Shown: one piece after another, positions 11,834 to 30,186 of the stretch
Position numbering within the stretch: the stretch's first letter is position 1
Layout: every line of letters starts with the position of its first letter
Source: Candidatus Neomarinimicrobiota bacterium
Lineage (GTDB): Bacteria > Fidelibacterota > Marinisomatia > SCGC-AAA003-L08 > TS1B11
Reading direction: 5' to 3'
NCBI GenBank assembly: GCA_022560655.1
Contig: JADFSS010000005.1
Location: 1 to 64,000, forward strand
Length of the DNA stretch: 64,000 nt
Program-made: the position numbers and the translations under genes
The notes under the pieces: model-generated
What the model was told of the DNA's origin: nothing
What the model saw: the letters and a program-made list of their open reading frames with translations, nothing else
Databases searched by the model: none

Positions 11834-14800
11834 TTACGCGGCGGCGGCGGCCCCGTCGGCAGCTATTTTGTCCTCCAGGGTTTGTAGAAAATCCTCGGCA
11901 TGGGTGTAGGCGTCGGCCTGGTTGATGGTGAGCACGAGGCGCAGCTCACCACTCTTCAGGTTGACAAAACGATAAGCGTTGCCGGTTGGTTCCAGCGCGG
12001 CCTCGATGGCGCTGAGCAGTTCGGACGCATCGCTGGGCGGCGGGAAGTCCAGGTGCAGCTGCCCCCGGGGGGCCGCTCGAACAGCCTTGATGTGCAAGTG
12101 GGCGGCGCGGATGGCGAGGCGGGCCGTGCGCAAGAGGTCTTCAGCCTCGGCGGGCAGGGGCCCAAAGCGGTCGGCGAGTTCGTGGCGAAAACGGTCCAAC
12201 TCCTCCAGGGTGGCCAGGCTGGCGAGTCGGCGGTACAGGTTGAGGCGCAGATGGGGTTCGGCGACGTAGCCGGCGGGTAGCCGTGCGTCGGGAAAAAGGC
12301 GCACGGTGACATCGTCGCGGGGCAGGGGCGTGGACTGCTCGCCGCCCATGTCGCGCTCGCGCACGACGTCGCGAATAATGCGGGTGTAGAGGTCGAGGCC
12401 CACGGCAGCGACGTGGCCGCTCTGCTCCAGGCCGAAGAGATTGCCGGTGCCGCGGATTTCCAGGTCGCGAAGGGCCAAGGCGTAGCCGGAGCCAAGCGCG
12501 CTGTGGCGTTCGATGGTCTTCAAGCGCTTGGTGGCCTGGCGGGAAAGACGGGGCCGCCGGGGAATGATGAGGTAGGCGTAGGCCTGGCGGTTGCCGCGCC
12601 CCACCCGGCCACGAATCTGATACAGCTGGGCCAGGCCAAAGCGGTGCGCGTTGTTGATAATGACGGTATTCACATTAGGCAGATCGATGCCCGACTCGAT
12701 GATGCTGGTACAGACCAGCAGCTGGAAGCGGCGCTCGGCGAAGGCCAGCATGGTGCTTTCGAGCTGGCGGGCGGGTTGCTGTCCGTGGGCCACGGCCAGC
12801 TTGACCTGGGGCAGCGCCTCCTGGAGGTCGCGGGCCAGGCGGTGGATGTCCTTGACGTTACTATGCACGACGTAAACCTGGCCGTCTCGGCGCAGCTCCC
12901 GTTGAATCACCTCCTTGAGCAGTCCCAGGCCGTAATAGTGTACCGAAGTAGAGATGGGCATACGCTGCAGCGGTGGCGTAGCGAGGCGGGAGATATCCCG
13001 AATGCCCGCCAGCGAGAAGTGCAGGGTGCGGGGAATGGGGGTGGCGGACATGCTGAGCACGTCCACGGAGGCCTTGAGCGACTTGAGGTGCTCCTTTTGC
13101 TTGACGCCGAAGCGGTGCTCCTCGTCGACGATGAGCAAACCCAGGCGTTTGAAGAAGACCTCCTTGGACAGGAGGCGGTGGGTGCCGATGAGCAGATCCA
13201 CCGACCCGGCGGCCAGGTCCTGGAGGGTTTGCCGCTGGGTCGCGGGCGGGACGAAGCGGGAGAGCATGTTGACCCGAACGGCAAAGGGCTCAAGCCGGGC
13301 CCGGAAGGAGATGAAGTGCTGGTTGGCAAGGATGGTGGTGGGGGCCATGAGGGCCACCTGATAGCCGCCGCGAATGGCTTTGAAGGCGGCGCGCAGAGCG
13401 AGTTCGGTCTTGCCGAAGCCGACATCGCCGCACAGCAGGCGGTCCATCGGGCGGGGGAGCTCCATGTCACGGACGATCTCATCCATGGCGCGGAGCTGAT
13501 CGGGGGTGGGGACGTAGGGAAAGGTGGCCTCCATGTCCTGCTGCAACTCATCGTCCGGGGCGTGGACGAGGCCTTCGGCCTCCTGACGGCGGGCATAGAG
13601 CTGGGCCAACTGCTCCACCACCTCCTCGGCGGAGCGCCGGGTGCGCTGCTGAACCCGTTCCCAGCGTCGGGAATTGAGGGCGTCCAGGGGCGGCGGACCG
13701 TCGCCCTCCGGGGTATAGGGAAAGACCAGCCCGACCTTGTCGGGTGAGACGTAGACCCGGTCGCCGCCGGCGTATTCGATGGCCAGCGCCTCCTGCTGGT
13801 TGCCTGCGGCGGGCAGGGGCAGCAGGCCGAGATAACGACCGATGCCGTAGCTGACGTGGACAATGGGGTCGCCGGCTTCCAGGGTGTCGAGATGTTGTTG
13901 CAGGGTGGCCAGGGAGGGGGCGGCCTGGCGGTACGGTTGCCAGGCCGGGGCCACCGCCAGCGGTAAGACTATGGCGGGGCGGGCCAGGAGGTGGCGGCCG
14001 GCGAGCACCAGCAGTTTGAGGGCCGGGGAGGAGAAGCTGGAGGGATAGTCGCCGGCAACCAGCTCCAGGGGCACAGTGGGAAAGCGGGCGCGGGCGCGGT
14101 CAACCAGGCCCGGGTCGTCGGCCACCAGTAGAGCGCGGGCGTCGGGGGCCGCAACCCTGAGGCGCTCCCAGCGTGCGGCCACAAGGGCCGGCTCCAGAGC
14201 CGGTTTTTCGAGGGCTTCCACCTGCAGGTCACCGTCCTGTCCGGGGTGCTGTCCGTTGGAAGCGGTGAGCGTCCAGACTGCGGCGGGTCCTTCGGCTGGG
14301 CTCAGGCTCGCCGGGCCTCCCCGTGCCGGGTACGGCGGGGGTTGGGCTACGCCCAGAGGGACAGGCTCCTCAGCGGCCGCGACCCATCCCCGGGACAGGT
14401 AGTCATAGATGGGCACGGGCTCCTGCGAGGTCTCCGCACAGGAGAAAATGACGACGGCCTCCCGGCGGCGGTCGCTGGTCTGGGAATGGATGTGAAAGGT
14501 TCTGAGTTCCTCGAGCACCTCGCCGTCAAAGTCGAAGCGGACGGGGACCGGGAGATTGACGGGAAAGCAGTCGATGATGCCGCCGCGCACGGCATAGGTG
14601 CCGGGTTCGGTGACCAGGGGCACGTCCTCGTAGTCGTTCTCCCGGAGCCAGGCGCGCAGGGCGGCGAAGGTGACGGCCCCGGCCTGCACCCGGAGGGAAG
14701 CGGCCCGCAAGGCGGAGGCCGGTGGCAGGCCGCGCTCCAGGAGGTGCGGTGTGCAGAGAATAAAAGCGGGCGGTGCGGGGTCTGCCAGGCGGGCCAGGGC

Positions 14801-15103
14801 GGCGCGTCGAAACGGCTCCAGGGGAGCGTCAAAGCCGGGGGGCGCATCGGCTTCCGCCGGAGCGGGGAAGAGCACCAGCTCCTCGGTGGTCCACCCCAGC
14901 CCCCTGAGGGCCTCCCCGGCGCGGAGCAGCTCCTCGTCATGGCGAAAGGAGGCCAAAACGGGCCGGCCGGCGGTGGTGGACAGGTGGGCCAGCAGGAGGG
15001 GCAGAAAGGCGGGCTCGACCCCCGTCAGTCGGGCGCCGGGCGCGGCCCCCAGGCGGGTCAGGGCAGCGCCAACGGCCCCCAGCAGCCCCTCAGTCCGGTT
15101 CAC
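11834..15103 (-). CDS. mfd: Transcription-repair coupling factor Mfd
   Basis: The product has 1089 aa. The order is an N-terminal UvrB-homology region (residues 1 to about 330), an RNA-polymerase-interacting CarD-like domain ([21 protein letters not shown]), and a RecG-like helicase with Walker [28 protein letters not shown] and [15 protein letters not shown]-terminal TRCF domain completes it. It removes stalled RNA polymerase and recruits UvrA. The start is GTG at 15101-15103, overlapping the stop of mnmG by four bases. Residues 246-271 are encoded by a dispersed repeat (see 14291-14366), a proline/glycine-rich insertion in the N-terminal module. Confidence 0.95.
14291..14366 (+). repeat. 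Dispersed intragenic repeat, copy A (inside mfd)
   Basis: This 76-bp block aligns without gaps to 24121-24196 with seven mismatches. Invariant cores include CTCAGGCTCG, GGTACGGC and GGGTTGGGCTACGCCCAGAG. Here it is antisense to mfd and encodes residues 246-271 in frame. It contains small hairpins (GGGC-TAC-GCCC and CCGT...ACGG). Confidence 0.75.
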
Positions 15104-17001
15104 GGCGATGTTTCACGTGAAACATGCCAGCGCTTGAGATGGATGGCCAGCAGGGCGATGTCAGGGGGGTTGACCCCGGCGATGCGGGAGGCCTGGCCCA
15201 GGGTTTGGGGTCGCACCGCCAACAGCTTTTCACGGGCCTCGGCCCGGAGTGCGACGATGGCGCCGAGGTCGAATTGGGGGTCCAGAGGGGTGTGCTCCAG
15301 CCGCGCCAGCGCGGCTGCGGCGGCCTGCTGGCGGGCGGCGTAGCCCTCGTACTTGAGGTCAGTCTCCGCCGTGAAGCGGTCGCTTTCGGGCAGATCCTCC
15401 AGCGCGCCGGCGGGCAAGAGCGGTGCCAGACGGTGGAGGGTGAATTCGGGCCGCTTGAGGAGGCGCGCGAGGGTGGCGCCTTGTGGGGGTATGGTGGCCC
15501 ACTGGCCGTCGGTGCCAGAGTTGTCCGGGGTGATCTTGAGGGTTGCGGCCAGCTCCTTGAAGCGGGCCACATTCCGGCGGCGCGCTTCCAGACGGCGGCT
15601 GTCCTGCGGGGTGAGTAGCCCCCGTTCGGTGCCGTGGTGTGAGAGCCGCAGATCGGCGTCATCGGGGCGCAGCAGGAGTCGATACTCCGCCCGGGAGGTG
15701 AGCATGCGGTAGGGCTCGGCGCTATCCTTGGTGATGAGGTCGTCCACCATGACCCCCAGATAGGCCTCGTCGCGTCCCAGGACGAGGGCCGGGCGTTCCT
15801 GTACCTGGGCCGCGGCATTGATACCGGCCAGGAGGCCCTGGCCAGCGGCCTCCTCATAGCCGGAAGTGCCGTTCACCTGTCCCGCCAGGTAGAGGCCGGC
15901 AATGTCCTTGCTCTCCAGGGTAGCCTGGAGCTGGCGGGGCGGGATAAAATCGTATTCGATGGCGTAGCCCGGCCGGATGAAGCGGGCCTGCTCCAGACCG
16001 GGAATGTGTTTGAGGGCCTCCTGCTGCGCGTCCTCCGGGAGGCTGGTGGAAAAGCCGTTGACATAGATCTGCTGGGCGTCGTGCCACTCCGGCTCCAGGT
16101 AGATGGGGTGCTCGTTGCGGTGGGCGAAGCGCACCACCTTGTCCTCAATGCTGGGACAGTAACGGGGCCCCACGCCGGCAATCTCGCCGGTGAAGAGGGG
16201 CGAGCGCTGGAGATTGGCCCGGATGATGTCGTGCACCGCCGGCCGGGTGTGGGTCTGGTAGGAAGGCTCGTCGGGTGGCTGGAACGGTTGGGGCGTGCGG
16301 AATGAGAAGGGCACGGGCCGCTCGTCCCCGGGCAGGCGTGTGGTGCGGTCCCAGTCGATAGAATCACGGTGGAGGCGGGGGCAGGTGCCGGTTTTGAGGC
16401 GGCCGGCCGCAAACCCCAGCGCCTGGAGCGATTCGGTGATGCCCTCCGAGCGCCGCTCACCCATGCGTCCGGCGCGAAATTTCTGGTCCCCAATGTGGAT
16501 CAGGCCGTTGAGGAAGGTGCCGCAGGTGAGGATGGCCGTCCTGGTGCGCAGGCGACCCGCTTCCCGGAGGAGCACCCCCCACAGGCGGCCATGCCTGACG
16601 CGCACGCCGATGACCTCGCCCTTGCGCACGGTGAGACCGGGCTGGTTAGAGACGGTGGTGAGCAGATGCCGGGCATAGGCGCGTTTGTCGATCTGGGCCC
16701 GGGGGCTCCAGACGGCGCGACCTTTGCTAGTATTGAGCATTTTGAACTGCAGCCCGGTCTGGTCCGCTGCCAGCCCCATTTCGCCGCCCAAAGCGTCGAT
16801 CTCCCGCACCATGTGACCTTTGGCCAAGCCCCCAATGGCGGGATTGCACGACATGCGGCCGATGGCCTGGGGATCGAGGGTGACCAGCAGGGTAGCGCAG
16901 CCCAGGCGTGCCGCTGCCAGGGCGGCCTCCACGCCGGCATGACCGCCACCGGCCACCACCACGTCCCACACGCGATCGGTCACATTGGCGTTACTGCCCA
17001 C
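15100..17001 (-). CDS. mnmG: tRNA uridine-5-carboxymethylaminomethyl modification enzyme MnmG
   Basis: The product has 633 aa. The N-terminal Rossmann FAD motif is [21 protein letters not shown]; further family signatures are [35 protein letters not shown] and [14 protein letters not shown], with the C-terminal helical domain binding MnmE. The MnmE-MnmG complex modifies U34 of certain tRNAs. It lies 2 bp downstream of mnmE. The last codons (WHVSRETSP) overlie a perfect parS site, and the stop overlaps the mfd start. rsmG, parA and parB, which often follow mnmG, are absent here. Confidence 0.96.
15109..15124. promoter_or_regulatory. parS: parS centromere site (ParB binding)
   Basis: A perfect 16-bp palindrome TGTTTCACGTGAAACA, identical to the widespread chromosomal parS consensus, embedded in the last codons of mnmG. 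It lies about 5.4 kb from the oriC candidate. It would load ParB for origin segregation; parAB are not in this window. Confidence 0.85.
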
Positions 17002-17003
17002 GC

Positions 17004-18395
17004 CTATTTGCCCACGCAGAACTCGCTGAAGATGCGCTGGAGCACCTCTTCGTTGGGCACCTCGCCAATGATGTTGGCCAGGCTGTCCATCGCCAGGCGA
17101 ATCTCGCTGCTGATAACGTCGATGGATTGGCCCGCGTCCAGTTGCTCCACCGCCGACTCGATTTGCTGCAGGGCTAGCTCGAGGCCCGCCAGCTGGCGCT
17201 CGGAGCTGACCACGGCCCCATCCTCGGCGGGGAGGTGGTCGCTCAAAACCTGGGCAAGCCGGGCCAGCAGGAGGTCCAATCCATTGTCGCGCCGGACCGA
17301 GACGGGGATGGGGCCGTCGGCCGCGGGTGGGTCGCCGTCGGTGTCGCGCTTGGAGTGGACCTGCAGCAGCGCGGGCGGCCGTTCGTCATCCAGGTCCAGC
17401 GCTGCGTCGAGCGTTGCGGCGGCCGGGTCGTCGGGATCCAGCAGCAATACAATATCAGCCGCGGCCAGCTGCTGCCGGCTGCGCTCCACGCCGGCCCGGT
17501 CCAGAACATCGCTGGTATCCTGAAGCCCGGCGGTATCCACCAGACAGACCGGGAAACCGGCAATATCGATCCAGGCCTCCAGACTATCCCGGGTGGTGCC
17601 GGGGAGGTCTGCAACGATGGCCTGCTCATGGCCTACCAGGGCGTTAAACAGGCTGGATTTGCCCGCGTTGGGTGGGCCGGCGAGGATAATGCGCACGCCG
17701 TCGCGGAGGATACGGCCATAAGGTGCGGTGGCCTGCAGGTGGCGGACTTGCTCCGCGACGGGCGCCAAGGCCTTACGAATGTCAGCATGGGTGGTGGCGT
17801 CCAGCTCATCCTCGGAAAAATCCAGCTCGTGCTCCAGTAGGGTGAGCAGCCGCAGCAGGCTTGCCCGCATGCGGTTGATTTCCCGGGAAAGTCCGCCACT
17901 CAATTTGTAGGTTGCCGCCTGCTGTCCGCGCCGGCTCAGGCTGGTAATGACCTCATTCAGGGCCTCCGCCTCGGCCAGATCCATTTTGCCGTTGAGAAAG
18001 GCGCGCATGGAGAACTCGCCCGGCTCCGCCTGGCGGGCGCCCAGCCGTACCAGGTGACGGATGACTTCCCGCGGCGTTACGTAGCCGCCGTGGATGCTGA
18101 ACTCAACCACGTCTTCGCCGGTAAAGGAGGCCGGGGCCTGGAAATAGGTTATGACGCCCGAATCCAGCGCGGGCCCATTGTCGGGCGCCGTGACCGCCCC
18201 ATGAAAGGCGTGCCGCGGGTTGGCTGCCAGCGGCGCCGTGCACATCTTGCCGGCCCACGCCAGGGACTTGGGTCCGCTCAGGCGCACCACGGCCAGACCG
18301 CCCCGCCCGGGGGGCGTCGCCAGGGCAACGATGGTATCGGTGCGGTAGGGGAGGGCGGCAGCCCGCGAGCGCACATTATCCGGTGCCAGTGACAT
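17004..18395 (-). CDS. mnmE: tRNA modification GTPase MnmE
   Basis: The product has about 463 aa from the ATG at 18395; an in-frame TTG at 18416 would add seven residues, and neither has a clear ribosome site. The N-terminal tetrahydrofolate-binding domain begins [23 protein letters not shown]. The G-domain has a P-loop [14 protein letters not shown] and DLPGTTRDS. The C-terminal FCVGK ends with the catalytic-type C-x-G-K motif of MnmE. It partners MnmG, whose gene follows at once. Confidence 0.95.
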
Positions 18396-18453
18396 GGTGA
18401 TGCAATTTACGATCAACGGCGGGGTTTGATAAACAGCTAAAGGGAGCGGCGGG

Positions 18454-20217
18454 TTACTTGCTTTTTGCCCCCGTGGTTCCGAGCTGTCCAGCTTGCAGCT
18501 TACGCCGGATGTTGCGCTGCTGGAAGATGCCCAGAATGTTGGAAAAGGCGTAGTAGAGGTTCAGGCCGCTGGGAAAGGTGTTAAAAATGAGAAAGAAAAA
18601 GCCCGTCATCATGTACATCATGGGCTTCTGCTGGGGATTGTTCGAGACACCACTCAATTTCTGCTGGACGAACATGGTGATGCCCATGATCAGCGCGAGA
18701 ATGGTGACGCCGCTGCCATAAAGGGGTAGGCTGAAGGGCAGGGTAAAGACCACATCGGGGGCGGAAAGGTCGGTGACCCAAAGGATAAAGGGCTGGCCGC
18801 GGAGCTCGATGGTGGTGCGAAAGACAATAAACAGCGCCCACAGCAGCGGCAACTGTATAAGGATGGGCAGGCAGCCCCCCAGCGGATTCACGCCCTCCGA
18901 TTTCCAGAGCGCCATGGTCTCCTTGCTCAGTTTCTGCTGGTTGCCCTTATACTTTGCCTGCAGCTCCTTGAGCCTGGGCTGGACCAGTTGCATTTTTTGG
19001 GTGGAGATGGCGCTCTTCTTGGTGAGAGGATTGGTGAGCACGCGAATGGCAACGGCAAACAGGATCAGAACGACACCGTAGTTAGGCAGATAACCATGCA
19101 AGAAGACCAGACTGTAGAGCACAAAGGTGCTGATGGGCCGGATCAGGGAAAAACCGAGGTTCATGATGCGCTGGAGCCCGACATCCAGATCGCGAATAAT
19201 GAAGTAGGACAGGGGCCCCAAATAGAGGGTCATGGACACGGGTCGGCGGGCATCATAGCCCAGCGCCATGCCGTGGCGGGTCACGGCCTCCTCTTTACCG
19301 TTGGTCCCAGTAACGGACTCGAAGCGCGCGCGCAATGCGCCGAACGCCCCGGGCTGTTGCGGGTCGGCAATGAAGGCGGCGGCAAAATACTTGTTGCGCA
19401 GGGCAACCCAATCCGTATTGCCCACGAAATTTTTATGAACCGGCTTTCCGCGACGGGCTTTGCCCTGGTCGGCCAATTCACCGCCCTGAAAGACGTAGGC
19501 TTTGCTGTAAATCTCGTCCTCCTTGCGCACTCTTTCCGTGCTGGCCAGACCACCGGGCCAGGCGATTTCAAAGGTGCTCGCGCTGGGGCCGATTTCGCGC
19601 TCAGGATAGAGCCACTCAATGGAAACGGGCACGGTGTAGCGATCGCTGTGAAAGGTCAGGCGCTTAATAATTTGGCTGCCGGAGGGAAAGGTATAGCGGT
19701 AAGCCACGGTGAGGGAACCCTCCTCCAGATAGGTATGCTCGGTTCGCGGCGCGGAAAGGATATCAAAGTTTTGGGTCAAGTGTATTGAGTCACCCACAAG
19801 ATTAATGTAGGCCAAATGGAGATTAACGCCAGCGCCATTATCGGTGATGAGCTGCACATTGCCGGTCCCGCTGCCATGCTGATACTCCTTGAGCTCAAAG
19901 TAGGTGAGCGCGCCGCCGCCGAGGGAAGATATGGTCGCCCGGTACAGGGGTGTCTCCAGGCTGAACGAGCGCTCCGCGGTGGCAACGAGGGGAGCACTGG
20001 CGGGCGGCGTTAACGCCGGGGCGGCGACGGCTCGGCGGGAGACCGGCGGCGGGGCAGCCAGTGGCGGCAGCGAGTCAGCGGGCTGGAACAGCAAGCGCTG
20101 TTCCGGGGGCGGTTCCATCGGCTGGGGGGGCGAGAGGCGCCGCACCATAGGCCCATAGAGGAGCAGTATCAGTGCGATGAGCACAAAGGCCAGTACGGCG
20201 CGCTGCGTATCGGTCAT
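18454..20217 (-). CDS. yidC: Membrane protein insertase YidC
   Basis: The product has 587 aa. One N-terminal membrane helix (VLAFVLIALILLLYGPMV) is followed by a large periplasmic beta-domain with ISSLGGGALTYFELKEY and then the conserved insertase core of five helices. This includes NYGVVLILFAVAIRVLTNPLTKKSAIST, the cytoplasmic hairpin KMQLVQPRLKELQAKYKGN, and GGCLPILIQLPLLWALF. The periplasmic domain marks the Gram-negative type. It lies in the classical rpmH-rnpA-yidD-yidC-mnmE order, 2 bp after yidD. Confidence 0.95.
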   Translation of the reverse strand: MTDTQRAVLAFVLIALILLLYGPMVRRLSPPQPMEPPPEQRLLFQPADSLPPLAAPPPVSRRAVAAPALTPPASAPLVATAERSFSLETPLYRATISSLGGGALTYFELKEYQHGSGTGNVQLITDNGAGVNLHLAYINLVGDSIHLTQNFDILSAPRTEHTYLEEGSLTVAYRYTFPSGSQIIKRLTFHSDRYTVPVSIEWLYPEREIGPSASTFEIAWPGGLASTERVRKEDEIYSKAYVFQGGELADQGKARRGKPVHKNFVGNTDWVALRNKYFAAAFIADPQQPGAFGALRARFESVTGTNGKEEAVTRHGMALGYDARRPVSMTLYLGPLSYFIIRDLDVGLQRIMNLGFSLIRPISTFVLYSLVFLHGYLPNYGVVLILFAVAIRVLTNPLTKKSAISTQKMQLVQPRLKELQAKYKGNQQKLSKETMALWKSEGVNPLGGCLPILIQLPLLWALFIVFRTTIELRGQPFILWVTDLSAPDVVFTLPFSLPLYGSGVTILALIMGITMFVQQKLSGVSNNPQQKPMMYMMTGFFFLIFNTFPSGLNLYYAFSNILGIFQQRNIRRKLQAGQLGTTGAKSK

Positions 20218-24769: not shown

Positions 24770-24828
24770 GACAGGAGTATACTAAGCAATACACAATGTC
24801 ATAAGCATGTATAACATTTAGATTTTAC
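24770..24828 (+). promoter_or_regulatory. AT-rich promoter region of the imuB-dnaE2 cassette
   Basis: An isolated AT-rich stretch in GC-rich surroundings, directly before the Y-family gene. It holds an inverted repeat GTAT-N8-ATAC (24777-24792), the palindrome AGTATACT (24776-24783) and a TATAACAT -10-like box at about 24810. Such cassettes are commonly LexA-controlled, so an SOS operator is plausible. The inverted repeat is not a known LexA box of a studied phylum. Confidence 0.35.
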
Positions 24829-26055
24829 TTGTCCGTGGCTGCGGGTGTGACTAACCTCGCGGTCATGCTTTCTTCCCAGCCCGCGCGCGTATTCCATACC
24901 CGGCTGAAAGATTTTCCTGTCCACGCCGAGCGTCTGCAGGACGCCTCCCTGGAGAGCAGAGCGCTGGCGGTGGTCAGTTCCCCGCGGCAGAACGGCACCA
25001 TTCTGGCCTTGTCCCGCGAGGCTGAGCAGGAGGGACTGCGCCGCCAGATGCGGGTTTCCCTGGCGCGCAAAATCTCCCCCCAGACGGTGCTGGTGACCGC
25101 TAACCCGGCCCTATACCATAAGGTGCAAGCACTGCTTTACCAGCGTCTGACGCGCTACTCTCCGGCGGTGGAAGCGGCCGGCTACGGCCGCTTCTTCCTG
25201 GACATGACGGGGACGGAAGGCCTGTTCAGCTCGAGTGAGCGGGCGGGACACATGGTACGGCGGGACCTGGCCGACCAGCTGAACCTGACAGCGCGCATCG
25301 GGATCGGCCGCAACAAGCTGGTGGCGGCCATCGCCACCAGGGTTCCCACGGAGGCAGCGGTGCTGACGGTGCCACCGGGGGGCGAGCTGCACTTCCTGGC
25401 GCCACTCCATGCCAGCATACTGCCCATAGCCAGGGAGCCAGGCGTGCTCCAGCCCCTGCGCGATTTGAATCTCGCCGTGGTACGGGATGTCCAGGAGCTG
25501 GTGAGCCATACCCCACTGGGGCAGATGGTTTTCAACCCCTTTTTCAGGCAGGTCTCGGCCCAGGCCCGGGGGGTGGATACTTCGCTGGTCCTGTCCCCGC
25601 AATGGACCCACCGCAACGGACGCAACCTGCTGGAACGCTATACCCTGCCGGAGGAGACCAACGACGCAGCTCGCCTGCGCGGCGGCATCCAGTACCTGGC
25701 CGACGTGGTGGCCTACAAACTGCGGCGCCTCCAGTGCCTGGCCGAGGATGTCACGCTGACCCTGCACTACAGCGATGGTTACGAAGACCGCGCCAGCGGG
25801 CGGCTGCCGCGTCCCGACACCGCCGGCGTAACCGCGGGGTTGCTGGGGCTGTTCCGACGGGCCAACCGGCGGCGCAACCGCGTGCGGGCCATGACGGTGG
25901 CCGTCCGCCGCCTGAAGCCCTACGCCCGGCAACTGAGTCTGTTTGCTGCTGGGGAGACCCGGGACCAGCGGGTCGCACGACAGGTGGATCGCATCAGGGA
26001 AAAGTATGGTGTGGGTAGCATTCTCACGGCCGGCCAGTTGTGCCTGGAGGATTAG
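24829..26055 (+). CDS. imuB: ImuB-like, probably catalytically inactive Y-family polymerase homologue
   Basis: The product has about 408 aa; the start is uncertain (TTG 24829, GTG 24835 or 24847). The fold is Y-family: a palm segment with GRFFLDMTGTEGLFSSSERAG, fingers with IGIGRNKLVAAIATR, and little-finger residues beyond about 250. The catalytic acidic pair of active enzymes ('SIDEAFLD') is replaced: Gly120 and Arg121 stand where Asp-Glu should be, and no N-terminal 'DMDAFFA' metal site is present. A clamp-binding pentapeptide QLSLF occurs at residues 368-372. Loss of catalysis, a clamp motif and a dnaE2 gene overlapping by 16 bp match ImuB, the adaptor of the DnaE2 translesion mutasome. 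imuA is not adjacent. Confidence 0.8.
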   Translation: MSVAAGVTNLAVMLSSQPARVFHTRLKDFPVHAERLQDASLESRALAVVSSPRQNGTILALSREAEQEGLRRQMRVSLARKISPQTVLVTANPALYHKVQALLYQRLTRYSPAVEAAGYGRFFLDMTGTEGLFSSSERAGHMVRRDLADQLNLTARIGIGRNKLVAAIATRVPTEAAVLTVPPGGELHFLAPLHASILPIAREPGVLQPLRDLNLAVVRDVQELVSHTPLGQMVFNPFFRQVSAQARGVDTSLVLSPQWTHRNGRNLLERYTLPEETNDAARLRGGIQYLADVVAYKLRRLQCLAEDVTLTLHYSDGYEDRASGRLPRPDTAGVTAGLLGLFRRANRRRNRVRAMTVAVRRLKPYARQLSLFAAGETRDQRVARQVDRIREKYGVGSILTAGQLCLED

Positions 26056-29000
26056 CGCTGTTCTGCCACCTGAACGTGCACTCGCACTACTCGCCCATGC
26101 GGGGGACGGCGTCCCTGGAAGCGCTGCTGGACAGGGCGCAGAGGCTGAAGATGAGTCACCTGGCGGTGACGGAGGTCAACGGTCTGTGGGGTTTCATCAA
26201 CTTTGTGCGGCTGGCGGGGGCGGCGGGTATCCAGCCCATCTGTGGCAGCCACATTCTGGTGGGCGCAGCGGGCGCCCGGCCGCGGCAGGACCTGGTCCTG
26301 CTGGTGACCAGCCAGACGGGCTACGAGAACCTCTGCCGCCTCCTGTCCCGGCTCCACGACGACCCCACTCAGGACGTGGCGCCGAGCCTGGGCAGCTGGG
26401 GCCGCGGGCTCCTGACGCTGTGCCCTGATCCTGCTCTGCTGGAGCGGCTGGCGGCGGTGGTGCCCCCCGACGCCCTCTTCGGTGAGCTGCGCCCGGGCAG
26501 GGACACGCTGCCGCTACTGGCGGCCTGCCGACGGTTGGGTGTGGAGGCGGTGAGCACCGGCGAGGTCTATTTCCTGGCCCCTGACGACGCCGGCCTGCAT
26601 CAGGTACTGCGAGCCATCGACCGCAACCAGCGGTTGTCTGACCTGCCGCCCTGGGAACTGAAACCAGAACAGCACCACTTTGCCGACGAAGACGAGTTCC
26701 GCCGACGCTACCCCCACTGTGGCGATGCCGTGGACCGGACGATGGCGCTGGCCGCCCGCTGCAAGACGCGCTGGGATTTTTCGGCCACGATTTTTCCCGG
26801 TGCGCCGGAAGGGGAAGACCCCGCGACCCAGCTGCGGCGGCAGGTCTATGCGGGGGCGAGCCAACGCTATGGCAGCCCCCTGCCGGCCAAGGTGAAGGGG
26901 CGCATCGAGAAGGAGCTGCGGCTGGTGAGCGCGAAGGGCTTTGACACCTATTTCCTCACGGTGGCCGATATCGTGGGGCAGACCCACCTCACCATCGGGC
27001 GGGGTAGCGGGGCGGCGTCGGTGATCAGCTACTGCCTGCTGATTACGCAGGTGGACCCCATCCGGCACAACCTGGCTTTCGAGCGCTTTTTGAATCCCGA
27101 GCGCAGCGACATGCCCGACCTGGATGTGGACTTCGCCTGGGATGAACGCGATGACATTCTGGACTATGTGTTCACGACCTACGGCACCGAGCGGGCCGCC
27201 ATGGTGGCGAACCAGGTGACCCTGCAGCCCCGGTCGGCCGTGCGGGAAGTGGCCAAGGTCTTCGGGCTGAGCAACGAGGATATCCTAACCATGACCAAGC
27301 GTATCGGACTGGTATTTGGCCAAGCGGGCCACCCGGCGCCCCGTACTCCGGCCATCCGTCAGGACGCCAATAGCGTGGTCCCGGCCCCATCTGTGGGGGC
27401 CCCGGTGTTGGACCTGAATGCGACCTGGAAGCAGGTCATCCAGGTGGCCATGCGGCTGATCGGGGTGTTTCACTACCCCTCGGTGCATGCCGGCGGGGTG
27501 GTGGTGGTGCCTGATGAGATCCGCCGTTACGTGCCGGTGCTGAAGGCGCCCAAGGGGGTCCAGATCGTGGAGTGGGAGAAGGACCAGGTGGAGGAGAGCG
27601 GGCTGGTGAAAATCGACCTGTTGGGGAACCGCTCCCTGGCCGTGGTGCGCGACTGCCTCCGGGCGATCAATCTGTACCGGGAGCCACGGGAGCACCTGTC
27701 GTACCACCACATCCGGCCCCTGGACGACGGCAAGACCCGGGACCTCATGGAGGCGGGCCGCACCATGGGTGTGTTTTACATTGAGTCGCCGGCGACGCGG
27801 CAGCTGCTGGCCAAGGCGGGCCGGGCCGACTACGAGCACGTGGTGATCTACTCCTCCATTATCCGCCCGGCCGCCAACCGCTTCTCCAACCTGCTGGTGG
27901 CGCGCATTCGCGGCGAGCCGTGGGAACCGCTGCACCCGGACGTGGACTTTCTGAACGAGAGCTACGGCATCATGGTGTACCAGGAGCAGGTGGCGCAGGC
28001 GGGCCGGGTGCTGGCAGGGTTTTCGTGGTCGGAGGCCGATATGCTGCAGAAGATCGGCACCAAGAAATCGCTGCGTCCCCTCATCCCCCAGCTGCGCGAG
28101 AAATTCATGTCGGGCTCATTGGCGCGGGGCTACCCACAGGAGGTTGTGGCGCAGCTGTGGGAGATGGTGGAGAGCTTCCAGGGCTACAGTTTCACCAAAG
28201 CGCACTCGGCCTCCTATGCACGGCTGTCATTTGTCTGCGCCTATCTGAAGGCCCACCACCCCGCCGAGTTCATGGCTGCGGTGATCAGCAACCGCGGCGG
28301 GTACTATTCGCCCTATGCCTACATGTCGGAAGGGCGCCGCATGGGCCTGCGCGTTTTAGCGCCCCACAGCAATCGTAGCGCGCTGGCCTGGAAAGGACAC
28401 GGGGGCAAAATGCGCATGGGATTCATGGAAATCCGCAGCCTGCACAGGGACAGCATTGCGGCGCTCCTCGACGAGCGCAAGCAGGGCGACTACCACAGCC
28501 TGGCCGACTTTCTGGGGCGCGTGGCGATTCCCTTCGGCGATAGCCGGGCCCTCATCCGGGCAGGCGCTTTCGACGAGCTGGAGCCGGAGCGCGCGCGCCC
28601 CGAGCTGCTCCTGCAACTGCTTGAGCACCACTACCAGGCCCACGGCCGGTTGGACAGTGACGACTTCTTTGACCGTGGCCAGCCCCACGCGTCCGACGGC
28701 CACCGCCTCAGGCCCCTGTCCCAGCGGCAACGCCTCCAGATGGAGATCGAATCCTTCGGCTACCCCTGGTCAAAACACCCCCTGGACCCCTATGGAGCGC
28801 TGCTGCGGGGGCGGGTCACGCTGGCGAAGGCCATTCCCGGTCAGGTGGGCCGCAGGGTCACGCTGGCCGGCATCTGCCTGACCACCAAAACCGTGCAGAC
28901 GCGCAAGGGTGAGCCCATGGAGTTCCTGACGTTCGAGGATCAGAGCGACGTCTACGAATGCGTCCTGTTTCCCGCCCAGTATCAGCAGTTCAACGACCTG

Positions 29001-29177
29001 GTGAAGTGGGAGAAGCTGTTTCTCGTGCAGGGGCGGGCGGAGGCGGACTGGGGCGTCATCACGGTGACGATCGAGAAGCTCACCAGCCTCTCCCGGGCGC
29101 TGGGCGTTCCGCCCGCGGGGAGCCCCGCCGAAGTGTGGGCCGGCCAACGCAGGCAGGATTATGGCCGACATGTCTGA
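26040..29177 (+). CDS. dnaE2: Error-prone DNA polymerase III alpha subunit DnaE2
   Basis: The product has 1045 aa, the DnaE2 length (main DnaE is usually longer). The N-terminal PHP domain begins FCHLNVHSHYSPMRGTASLE. The polymerase palm has RGSGAASVISYCLLITQVDPI, the metal-binding aspartates in MPDLDVDFAWDERD, and SFTKAHSASYARLSFVCAYLKA. A C-terminal OB-fold has GICLTTKTVQTRKG and 'FEDQSDVYECVLFPAQY'. The called start is GTG at 26040; a GGAGG at 26046-26050 could serve a start a few codons later. It overlaps imuB and the downstream radical SAM gene, so the three are one operon for damage-induced translesion synthesis. Confidence 0.88.
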   Translation: MPGGLALFCHLNVHSHYSPMRGTASLEALLDRAQRLKMSHLAVTEVNGLWGFINFVRLAGAAGIQPICGSHILVGAAGARPRQDLVLLVTSQTGYENLCRLLSRLHDDPTQDVAPSLGSWGRGLLTLCPDPALLERLAAVVPPDALFGELRPGRDTLPLLAACRRLGVEAVSTGEVYFLAPDDAGLHQVLRAIDRNQRLSDLPPWELKPEQHHFADEDEFRRRYPHCGDAVDRTMALAARCKTRWDFSATIFPGAPEGEDPATQLRRQVYAGASQRYGSPLPAKVKGRIEKELRLVSAKGFDTYFLTVADIVGQTHLTIGRGSGAASVISYCLLITQVDPIRHNLAFERFLNPERSDMPDLDVDFAWDERDDILDYVFTTYGTERAAMVANQVTLQPRSAVREVAKVFGLSNEDILTMTKRIGLVFGQAGHPAPRTPAIRQDANSVVPAPSVGAPVLDLNATWKQVIQVAMRLIGVFHYPSVHAGGVVVVPDEIRRYVPVLKAPKGVQIVEWEKDQVEESGLVKIDLLGNRSLAVVRDCLRAINLYREPREHLSYHHIRPLDDGKTRDLMEAGRTMGVFYIESPATRQLLAKAGRADYEHVVIYSSIIRPAANRFSNLLVARIRGEPWEPLHPDVDFLNESYGIMVYQEQVAQAGRVLAGFSWSEADMLQKIGTKKSLRPLIPQLREKFMSGSLARGYPQEVVAQLWEMVESFQGYSFTKAHSASYARLSFVCAYLKAHHPAEFMAAVISNRGGYYSPYAYMSEGRRMGLRVLAPHSNRSALAWKGHGGKMRMGFMEIRSLHRDSIAALLDERKQGDYHSLADFLGRVAIPFGDSRALIRAGAFDELEPERARPELLLQLLEHHYQAHGRLDSDDFFDRGQPHASDGHRLRPLSQRQRLQMEIESFGYPWSKHPLDPYGALLRGRVTLAKAIPGQVGRRVTLAGICLTTKTVQTRKGEPMEFLTFEDQSDVYECVLFPAQYQQFNDLVKWEKLFLVQGRAEADWGVITVTIEKLTSLSRALGVPPAGSPAEVWAGQRRQDYGRHV

Positions 29178-30186
29178 GGCGGGCGCACTCACCGGCATCG
29201 CCCGGCTGGCCGCAGGAGCGCCCCGGACCCTGGAGCGCGGCGACGCCGAGTACTTTCGCCTGCCCGTGCGTTCGGTGCTGAACCGGGTGAGCTCCCGCCG
29301 GGTAGGGTTCGAGTGGTCCATCAACCCCTACCGGGGCTGCACGTTTGGTTGCCGCTACTGCTACGCCCGCTACACCCACGAGTTCATGGAGCTGGCGCCG
29401 GAGGCGTTCGAGCGCCAGATCTACGTCAAGGCGGACGCCGGGCGGGTTTTGTGGCGTGACCTGTTGCGCCACCAGGTGGCCGGGAGCCATATTGCCATCG
29501 GCGCGGCCACCGACCCCTATCAGCCGGCGGAGAAGCAGTTCGGCGTGACCCGGACCATCCTGGAAACCCTGCTGCGCTACTCGCGCCTGCTGCCCGGCGG
29601 CGGTGGGCTGAGCCTGTCCATCACCACCAAGTCCAACCTTGTGCTGCAGGACCTGGCCCTGCTGCGGGCGCTGGCGAGCCGCAATGACCTGCACGTGAAC
29701 GTGAGCATCACCACCCTGCACCGGCGGCTGGCGCGGGCGCTGGAGCCCCGGGCGCCGCGCCCCGACCTGCGTCTGGAGACGGTGCGCAGGCTGGCGGGGG
29801 CGGGTATCGACGTTAACGTATTCGTGGCGCCGGTCCTGCCGGGCATCACCGATGGGCCCCGGGACCTGGAGGCCCTGGTGGCGGCTGCCGCGCGGGCCGG
29901 CGCCCAGGGGTTGATGGCCCACGCCGTTTTTCTGAAGCCCAGCGCCCAGCGGGTATTTTTCCCCTTCCTGGCCCAGCGCTTCCCCCACCTGCTGCGGCGC
30001 TACCGTCGCTGGTATGGGCGCGGGGCCTATGCTCCCGAGGACTACCGCAGAGCGTTGTCGGCCACCATGGGCCGCCTGCGGGCCCGGTACGGAATCAAAG
30101 CGCCGCCGCGCGACGGGGCCGCCGGGCAGCCCGACCACGGTGCGCTGGCGGAGCAGATGGAGCTGGTGTTTAACACTGAGGAGTGA
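29161..30186 (+). CDS. SplB-like radical SAM protein (Rv2578c/PA0069 type)
   Basis: The product has 341 aa. The radical SAM cluster motif CTFGCRYCYARYTHEFM (C-x3-C-x2-C) follows the family lead-in VGFEWSINPYRGC. Later signatures are IAIGAATDPYQPAEKQ, LSITTKSNLVLQDL, HVNVSITTLHRRLARALEPR and APVLPGITD. These place it in the spore-photoproduct-lyase-related family often annotated as PA0069 or Rv2578c-like, whose reaction is not established. It overlaps dnaE2 by 17 bp, so a role in the same DNA-damage response (for example photoproduct handling) is a fair inference but unproven. Confidence 0.85.
   Translation: MADMSEAGALTGIARLAAGAPRTLERGDAEYFRLPVRSVLNRVSSRRVGFEWSINPYRGCTFGCRYCYARYTHEFMELAPEAFERQIYVKADAGRVLWRDLLRHQVAGSHIAIGAATDPYQPAEKQFGVTRTILETLLRYSRLLPGGGGLSLSITTKSNLVLQDLALLRALASRNDLHVNVSITTLHRRLARALEPRAPRPDLRLETVRRLAGAGIDVNVFVAPVLPGITDGPRDLEALVAAAARAGAQGLMAHAVFLKPSAQRVFFPFLAQRFPHLLRRYRRWYGRGAYAPEDYRRALSATMGRLRARYGIKAPPRDGAAGQPDHGALAEQMELVFNTEE

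Follow-up and report, generated by a model that had tools for sequence, protein, structure and literature searches.

Introduction

Dead Y-family polymerase homologues that work beside a DnaE2 polymerase occur in the ImuA-ImuB-DnaE2 mutasome of M. tuberculosis, Pseudomonas and rhizobia. The ImuB/DnaE2 system is mutagenic in mycobacteria. An ImuA-free class, DnaE2B-iPolY-RecA, was published in 2019 and 2026, and its systems combine DnaE2 with an active or inactive Y-family protein bearing a RecA-NT motif, one of them being widely spread phyletically (PMC6511836, PMC12926913). The putative DnaE2B-iPolY-RecA mutasomes, among them the G. bemidjiensis DinB2 and Streptomyces DinB2 groups (Timinskas & Venclovas 2019; 2026 survey), pair a non-A DnaE2 with an inactive Y-family protein that carries clamp and RecA-NT motifs; they have no ImuA and no ImuB-C, and often include lexA. 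The lexA-DUF72-iPolY-dnaE2 operon of the Desulfosarcina ovata plasmid Do28_1 shares its gene set, dead Y-family site and RecA-NT tail with the pair analyzed here.

Here, we analyze an iPolY-dnaE2 pair in a window that spans positions 1 to 64,000 of contig C5 (76.2 kb) in G000, a draft genome of Candidatus Neomarinimicrobiota (2.33 Mb, 128 contigs, 95% complete). The original prediction had read the locus as an imuB-dnaE2 cassette that may work without ImuA. We consider it likely that the pair is instead a mutasome of the DnaE2B-iPolY-RecA type belonging to Candidatus Neomarinimicrobiota, a phylum that the 2026 paper does not name.

Results

A Y-family homologue without catalytic acids is coupled to dnaE2

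The first gene of the pair and its main features, all on the plus strand, are as follows.

24865 to 26055, plus strand: iPolY, an inactive Y-family polymerase homologue of 396 aa from ATG (Pfam IMS/IMS_C, alignments)
24901 to 24903, plus strand: Arg codon replacing the first catalytic Asp, HVDMD to HTRLK (alignments with Pol IV structures and orthologues)
25186 to 25191, plus strand: Gly-Arg codons replacing the catalytic Asp-Glu, SIDE to GYGR / YGRF (alignments with Pol IV and orthologues)
25930 to 25944, plus strand: predicted beta-clamp-binding motif QLSLF, conserved in orthologues
25951 to 26025, plus strand: RecA-N-terminus-like motif RDQRVARQVDRIREKYGVGSIL, a predicted RecA-binding tail (hhalign against RecA N-termini)

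The protein matches Pfam IMS (E=5.5e-30) and IMS_C (E=1.7e-8). Compared with solved Pol IV structures and counting residues from the upstream TTG, Arg25 stands in place of the N-terminal catalytic Asp and Gly120/Arg121 in place of the Asp-Glu pair. Since this loss is common to 20 of 20 aligned orthologues and to every inactive homologue in our phylum-wide sample, it is neither chance nor misalignment, and the predicted absence of Asp-Glu stands: no conserved acidic site appears once the homologue is correctly aligned. The predicted QLSLF is also present; among the 20 orthologues its Q and second L are invariant and its F nearly so, and we infer that it binds the clamp. Profile comparison of iPolY with RecA N-termini gave P=3e-4 for the whole protein and 1.7e-6 for the tail, a score matched by 0 of 200 column shuffles, and the tail motif pairs gap-free with residues 3-27 of the RecA N-terminus. 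By this alignment, the tail carries the RecA-NT motif, which published work ties to binding of RecA or ImuA; both this motif and the clamp motif are conserved among iPolY homologues. An AF2 monomer of iPolY (pLDDT 73, pTM 0.41) gave a low-confidence domain arrangement, and Foldseek confirms the Y-family fold only.

Two further genes follow on the same strand.

26040 to 29177, plus strand: dnaE2, a 1045-aa C-family polymerase with a GTG start (domain and motif analysis)
29161 to 30186, plus strand: radical-SAM gene of the Rv2578c/PA0069 (SplB-like) type, overlapping the dnaE2 end by 17 bp

The GTG of dnaE2 at 26040 overlaps the end of iPolY at 26055 by the predicted 16 bp, and dnaE2 follows iPolY in nearly every locus sampled. 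The polymerase Asp motifs of DnaE2 are intact (PDLDVDF at 27114-27134; KID, D526, at 27615-27617), while its PHP metal site is partly lost (TDH to TEV). The protein ends after the OB region, and no C-terminal domain for tau binding was seen. In Bacteroidetes, genes of the SplB-like type count among the SOS genes. The radical-SAM gene was not found beside the pair at relatives' loci, and the cassette as first drawn, reaching to 30186, therefore takes in a gene that is not a conserved neighbor. Elsewhere, G000 encodes a normal DnaE1 (contig C12) and a second Y-family protein that retains its catalytic acids in alignment with orthologues (contig C87).

ImuA and the ImuB C-terminal domain are not detected

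Neither imuA nor lexA adjoins the pair, as the original prediction had it, and neither was found elsewhere in G000, although a draft of this kind (95% complete, 128 contigs) could still lack a gene that the organism has. ImuA was sought in three ways: with the RecA Pfam family, with the NCBI ImuA family and with a profile of four plasmid ImuA proteins, a fifth being held out. The Pfam search returned a single RecA-family match, so that the proposed genome search for imuA or recA-like partners yields one recA and no ImuA. Our own profile recovered only this RecA (2e-7) and noise, compared to 6e-55 for the held-out Ensifer ImuA control, and is limited in that it misses a very divergent Thermomicrobium-type ImuA-like protein. 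The NCBI ImuA family (NF033429) gave no match over cut-off among relatives across the class; it is a poor ImuA test, since 0 of 14 controls passed its cut-off, and our own profile was built for that reason. As for ImuB-C (DUF6504), neither a fused nor a separate copy was found in any of 60 relatives, G000 among them, while the Caulobacter positive control was found. In the relative G004, two RecA genes lie on separate contigs, C41 and C122 (L128/L178 and L129/L179).

The window DnaE2 lies outside the ImuA/ImuB-linked clade

In a tree with reference DnaE proteins from annotated plasmids, the window DnaE2 is sister to the Desulfosarcina ovata plasmid DnaE2, to which it is 40% identical, and stands apart from a clade (DnaE2A) that holds the DnaE2 genes linked to ImuA and ImuB. 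Grouping the window DnaE2 with that clade was rejected (AU p=3e-46), and by the classification of the 2026 survey its placement makes it DnaE2B-like. The phylogeny of the Y-family partner is less decisive: in an iPolY tree without G. bemidjiensis DinB2, which is the reference sequence published for the closest iPolY group, a single clade of iPolY and ImuB was not rejected (AU p=0.39), and the Desulfosarcina iPolY joined the iPolY group with a support of only 72. The Desulfosarcina operon differs from the window pair in being plasmid-borne and in containing a DUF72 gene and lexA.

These placements bear on whether the pair could be a true ImuA-ImuB-DnaE2 cassette in reduced form, stripped of imuA and of the C-terminal domain of ImuB. 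The gene order and translational overlap are those of imuB-dnaE2, and the iPolY tree would accommodate such an origin. However, the DnaE2 groups with that of another ImuA-less iPolY operon, and since no ImuA over cut-off and no ImuB-C turned up in the 60 class-wide relatives, a late local loss is unlikely; we regard the reduced cassette as improbable. The window pair does share with the ImuA-ImuB-DnaE2 mutasome a dead Y-family scaffold, the clamp and RecA-NT motifs and a DnaE2 neighbor, but it has no ImuB-C, no ImuA in the genome, no DnaE2 of the DnaE2A clade and, in G000, no sign of LexA-controlled expression. The name "imuB" is not supported for this protein, because it lacks ImuB-C and its DnaE2 is excluded from the ImuA/ImuB-linked clade.

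The DnaE2B-iPolY-RecA assignment, by comparison, agrees with a non-A DnaE2 beside an inactive PolY, with the RecA-NT tail and with the presence of RecA without ImuA or ImuB. What survives of the original reading is thus the coupling of DnaE2 to a dead Y-family polymerase, probably as a mutasome, but not the ImuB identity. The suggestion that it may work without ImuA agrees with our failure to find ImuA, but since ImuA-less iPolY-DnaE2 systems were described in 2019 and 2026, it is not new.

The pair is widespread in the phylum and usually follows lexA

An iPolY-group profile scored above 440 bits in 80 of 245 genomes of the phylum, besides which there are lower-scoring groups whose sampled members are also inactive. 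Judged by this profile, the pair is present in at least 80 of the 245 genomes. The closest named relatives of G000 are Candidatus Neomarinimicrobiota genomes, represented by the contigs JADFNF010000044.1 (59% iPolY identity) and SCKI01000001.1 (54%). We found no published report of such a system in the Neomarinimicrobiota lineage, and the predicted extension of range holds to that extent.

In 17 of 20 sampled iPolY loci, lexA lies at most 0.8 kb upstream on the same strand, and in the usual layout for the phylum, lexA, iPolY and dnaE2 form an operon preceded by a direct-repeat box, ACTTACGAG-N2-ACTTACGAG, with an 11-bp period. All but one of the box sites (at most 2 mismatches) in a 1.7 Mb sample, which consists of loci fetched around lexA, S24 and iPolY genes and is not random, precede lexA, an S24-only (UmuD-like) gene or iPolY. 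Box-bearing loci of these three kinds are L010, L013, L100-L110, L113-L115, L136-L164 and L235-L282. Where lexA is elsewhere, the box can stand directly before iPolY (L010, L013, L268), and in several genomes of family f3 it precedes a lexA gene adjoining recA. In the G049 operon, the gene that our script assigned to the box is a short ORF-like stretch ahead of lexA.

We propose ACTTACGAG-N2-ACTTACGAG as a candidate phylum-wide LexA/SOS box. Despite the non-random sample, we favor this reading, because it is difficult to account in another way for a box that sits at the promoter and recurs in separate transcription units. A literature search found no description of the full box, only its 9-base half in unrelated papers, and no paper joining Neomarinimicrobiota and LexA. 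The LexA regulon of Balneolaeota likewise has a direct-repeat, non-palindromic box controlling translesion polymerases, but with the consensus TTACACATATTTTWTACATA as opposed to ACTTACGAG-N2-ACTTACGAG in Neomarinimicrobiota (PMC7739468). Together, the lexA linkage and the box make SOS control of the pair across the phylum a well-supported prediction.

Two variations in gene content were seen among these genomes. Small ORFs, encoding a GxxExxY-like protein and proteins resembling four-helix bundles, lie between lexA and iPolY in G058, G015 and G018 (L105, L108 and L101). Family f7 has what amounts to a split DnaE2: a PHP-domain gene of 253-285 aa stands by itself next to an apparently active PolY, and the DnaE2-like polymerase core, of 765-786 aa, has no PHP and is encoded elsewhere (L119:3566-6051 and 13917-16274; L120:2277-4571 and 17070-19612; L117:4686-7315 with L118:4835-7144).

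The window sub-lineage keeps the pair without lexA or the box

The direct-repeat box is absent at the pair in G000, G001, G004 and G006. Nor did the LexA DNA-binding domain give a match above the family cut-off in any of these four genomes, G001 having one sub-threshold match, while the sister genus g3 retains lexA (G002, 22 bp upstream). From this distribution, the window sub-lineage appears to have lost lexA and the box yet kept the pair. With both gone, damage induction of the pair in G000 is conjectural: the SOS-type control originally suggested for this locus has good support across the phylum but lacks it here.

If control was lost, the genes of the window lineage might be a decaying remnant. 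We consider this most improbable, however, since both reading frames are intact, the RecA-NT motif and the key motifs of DnaE2 persist, and five same-family relatives carry intact pairs at 54-60% (iPolY) and 65-69% (DnaE2) identity.

Expression of the retained pair would depend on a promoter of its own.

24829 to 24857, plus strand: probable sigma70-type promoter of the pair, with -35 TTGTCC at 24829-24834, a 17-nt spacer and -10 TAACCT at 24852-24857

The -35/-10/ATG geometry and spacing are repeated upstream of iPolY in the relatives G004 and G006. A strict consensus promoter scan did not flag this promoter, so the assignment rests on conservation. Since the TTG at 24829, where the gene was first placed, sits in the probable -35 box, the ATG at 24865 is the likelier start. 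It begins 7 nt past the -10 element, which implies that the iPolY mRNA is probably leaderless.

Ten genomes of the family encode an XRE-S24 repressor that has a Ser/Lys dyad and a cleavage site like that of LexA. This XRE-HTH plus S24 self-cleaving repressor is conserved in family f1 (L165-L174) and is a candidate LexA replacement, with a layout similar to that of the CI-like SOS repressors of Bacteroidetes (PMC8565304). Promoter comparison turned up one possible operator, as a hypothesis only.

24777 to 24785, minus strand: TTAGTATAC, one mismatch from TTAGTATTC, possible operator

Exact TTAGTATTC occurs five times in 302 kb of family DNA, three copies being at iPolY promoters (G001, G004, G006) and two at XRE-S24 promoters; the motif was picked after looking, the sample is non-random and the window copy is mismatched. 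Control of the pair by XRE-S24 through TTAGTATTC is therefore suggestive only.

Two other operator candidates were rejected. The 24-bp inverted repeat AATGTcATA-N6-TATaACATT (24795-24818) is absent from relatives. TTAGTATTCNTTAG has a single exact copy per genome in G001, G004 and G006, located at the promoter of iPolY, and its one-mismatch counts do not exceed those of a reversed-pattern control, which speaks against a regulon. The recA promoters offered no usable site, and recA seems to lie inside an operon in the three genomes with upstream sequence recovered.

It is possible, and we put it forward tentatively, that one Neomarinimicrobiota family has an intact mutasome uncoupled from LexA, transcribed from a leaderless promoter and either constitutive or under the conserved CI-like XRE-S24 repressor.

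Discussion

The anatomy of this pair, as read from its genes, stands up, is conserved and holds nothing unusual for an ImuA-free mutasome. We propose that the dead Y-family protein would serve as a scaffold whose QLSLF holds the sliding clamp, whose body binds DnaE2 and whose RecA-like tail captures a RecA protomer, replacing ImuA. DnaE2, with its polymerase residues intact and probably no proofreading, would then carry out mutagenic synthesis past lesions. Induction of the pair by DNA damage is predicted for most of the phylum, because the two genes are transcribed there with lexA behind the LexA box. In the window sub-lineage, the pair may have a promoter of its own that is constitutive or answers to another regulator.

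A different role can also be envisaged, in which iPolY tethers DnaE2 for non-mutagenic gap filling or repair synthesis and has no RecA partner. The window lineage, where the genes stay intact after the loss of lexA and the box, would fit this role, and the mutagenic one is itself inferred. On the other hand, the conserved RecA-NT motif, the control by LexA boxes predicted for most of the phylum, the partly lost PHP metal site of DnaE2 and the mutagenic activity of the homologous mycobacterial system all argue against it, and we find it unlikely.

As a probable DnaE2B-iPolY-RecA mutasome, the pair brings three new elements: the phylum, a candidate SOS box and a lineage that appears to keep its mutasome after the loss of LexA. 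The ImuA-free iPolY-DnaE2 mutasome would be a translesion system found widely in a large phylum, often marine and for the most part uncultured, whose regulon the candidate box makes directly predictable. The window lineage would be a natural case of a mutagenesis system outlasting LexA, and as such may bear on how SOS control is rewired.
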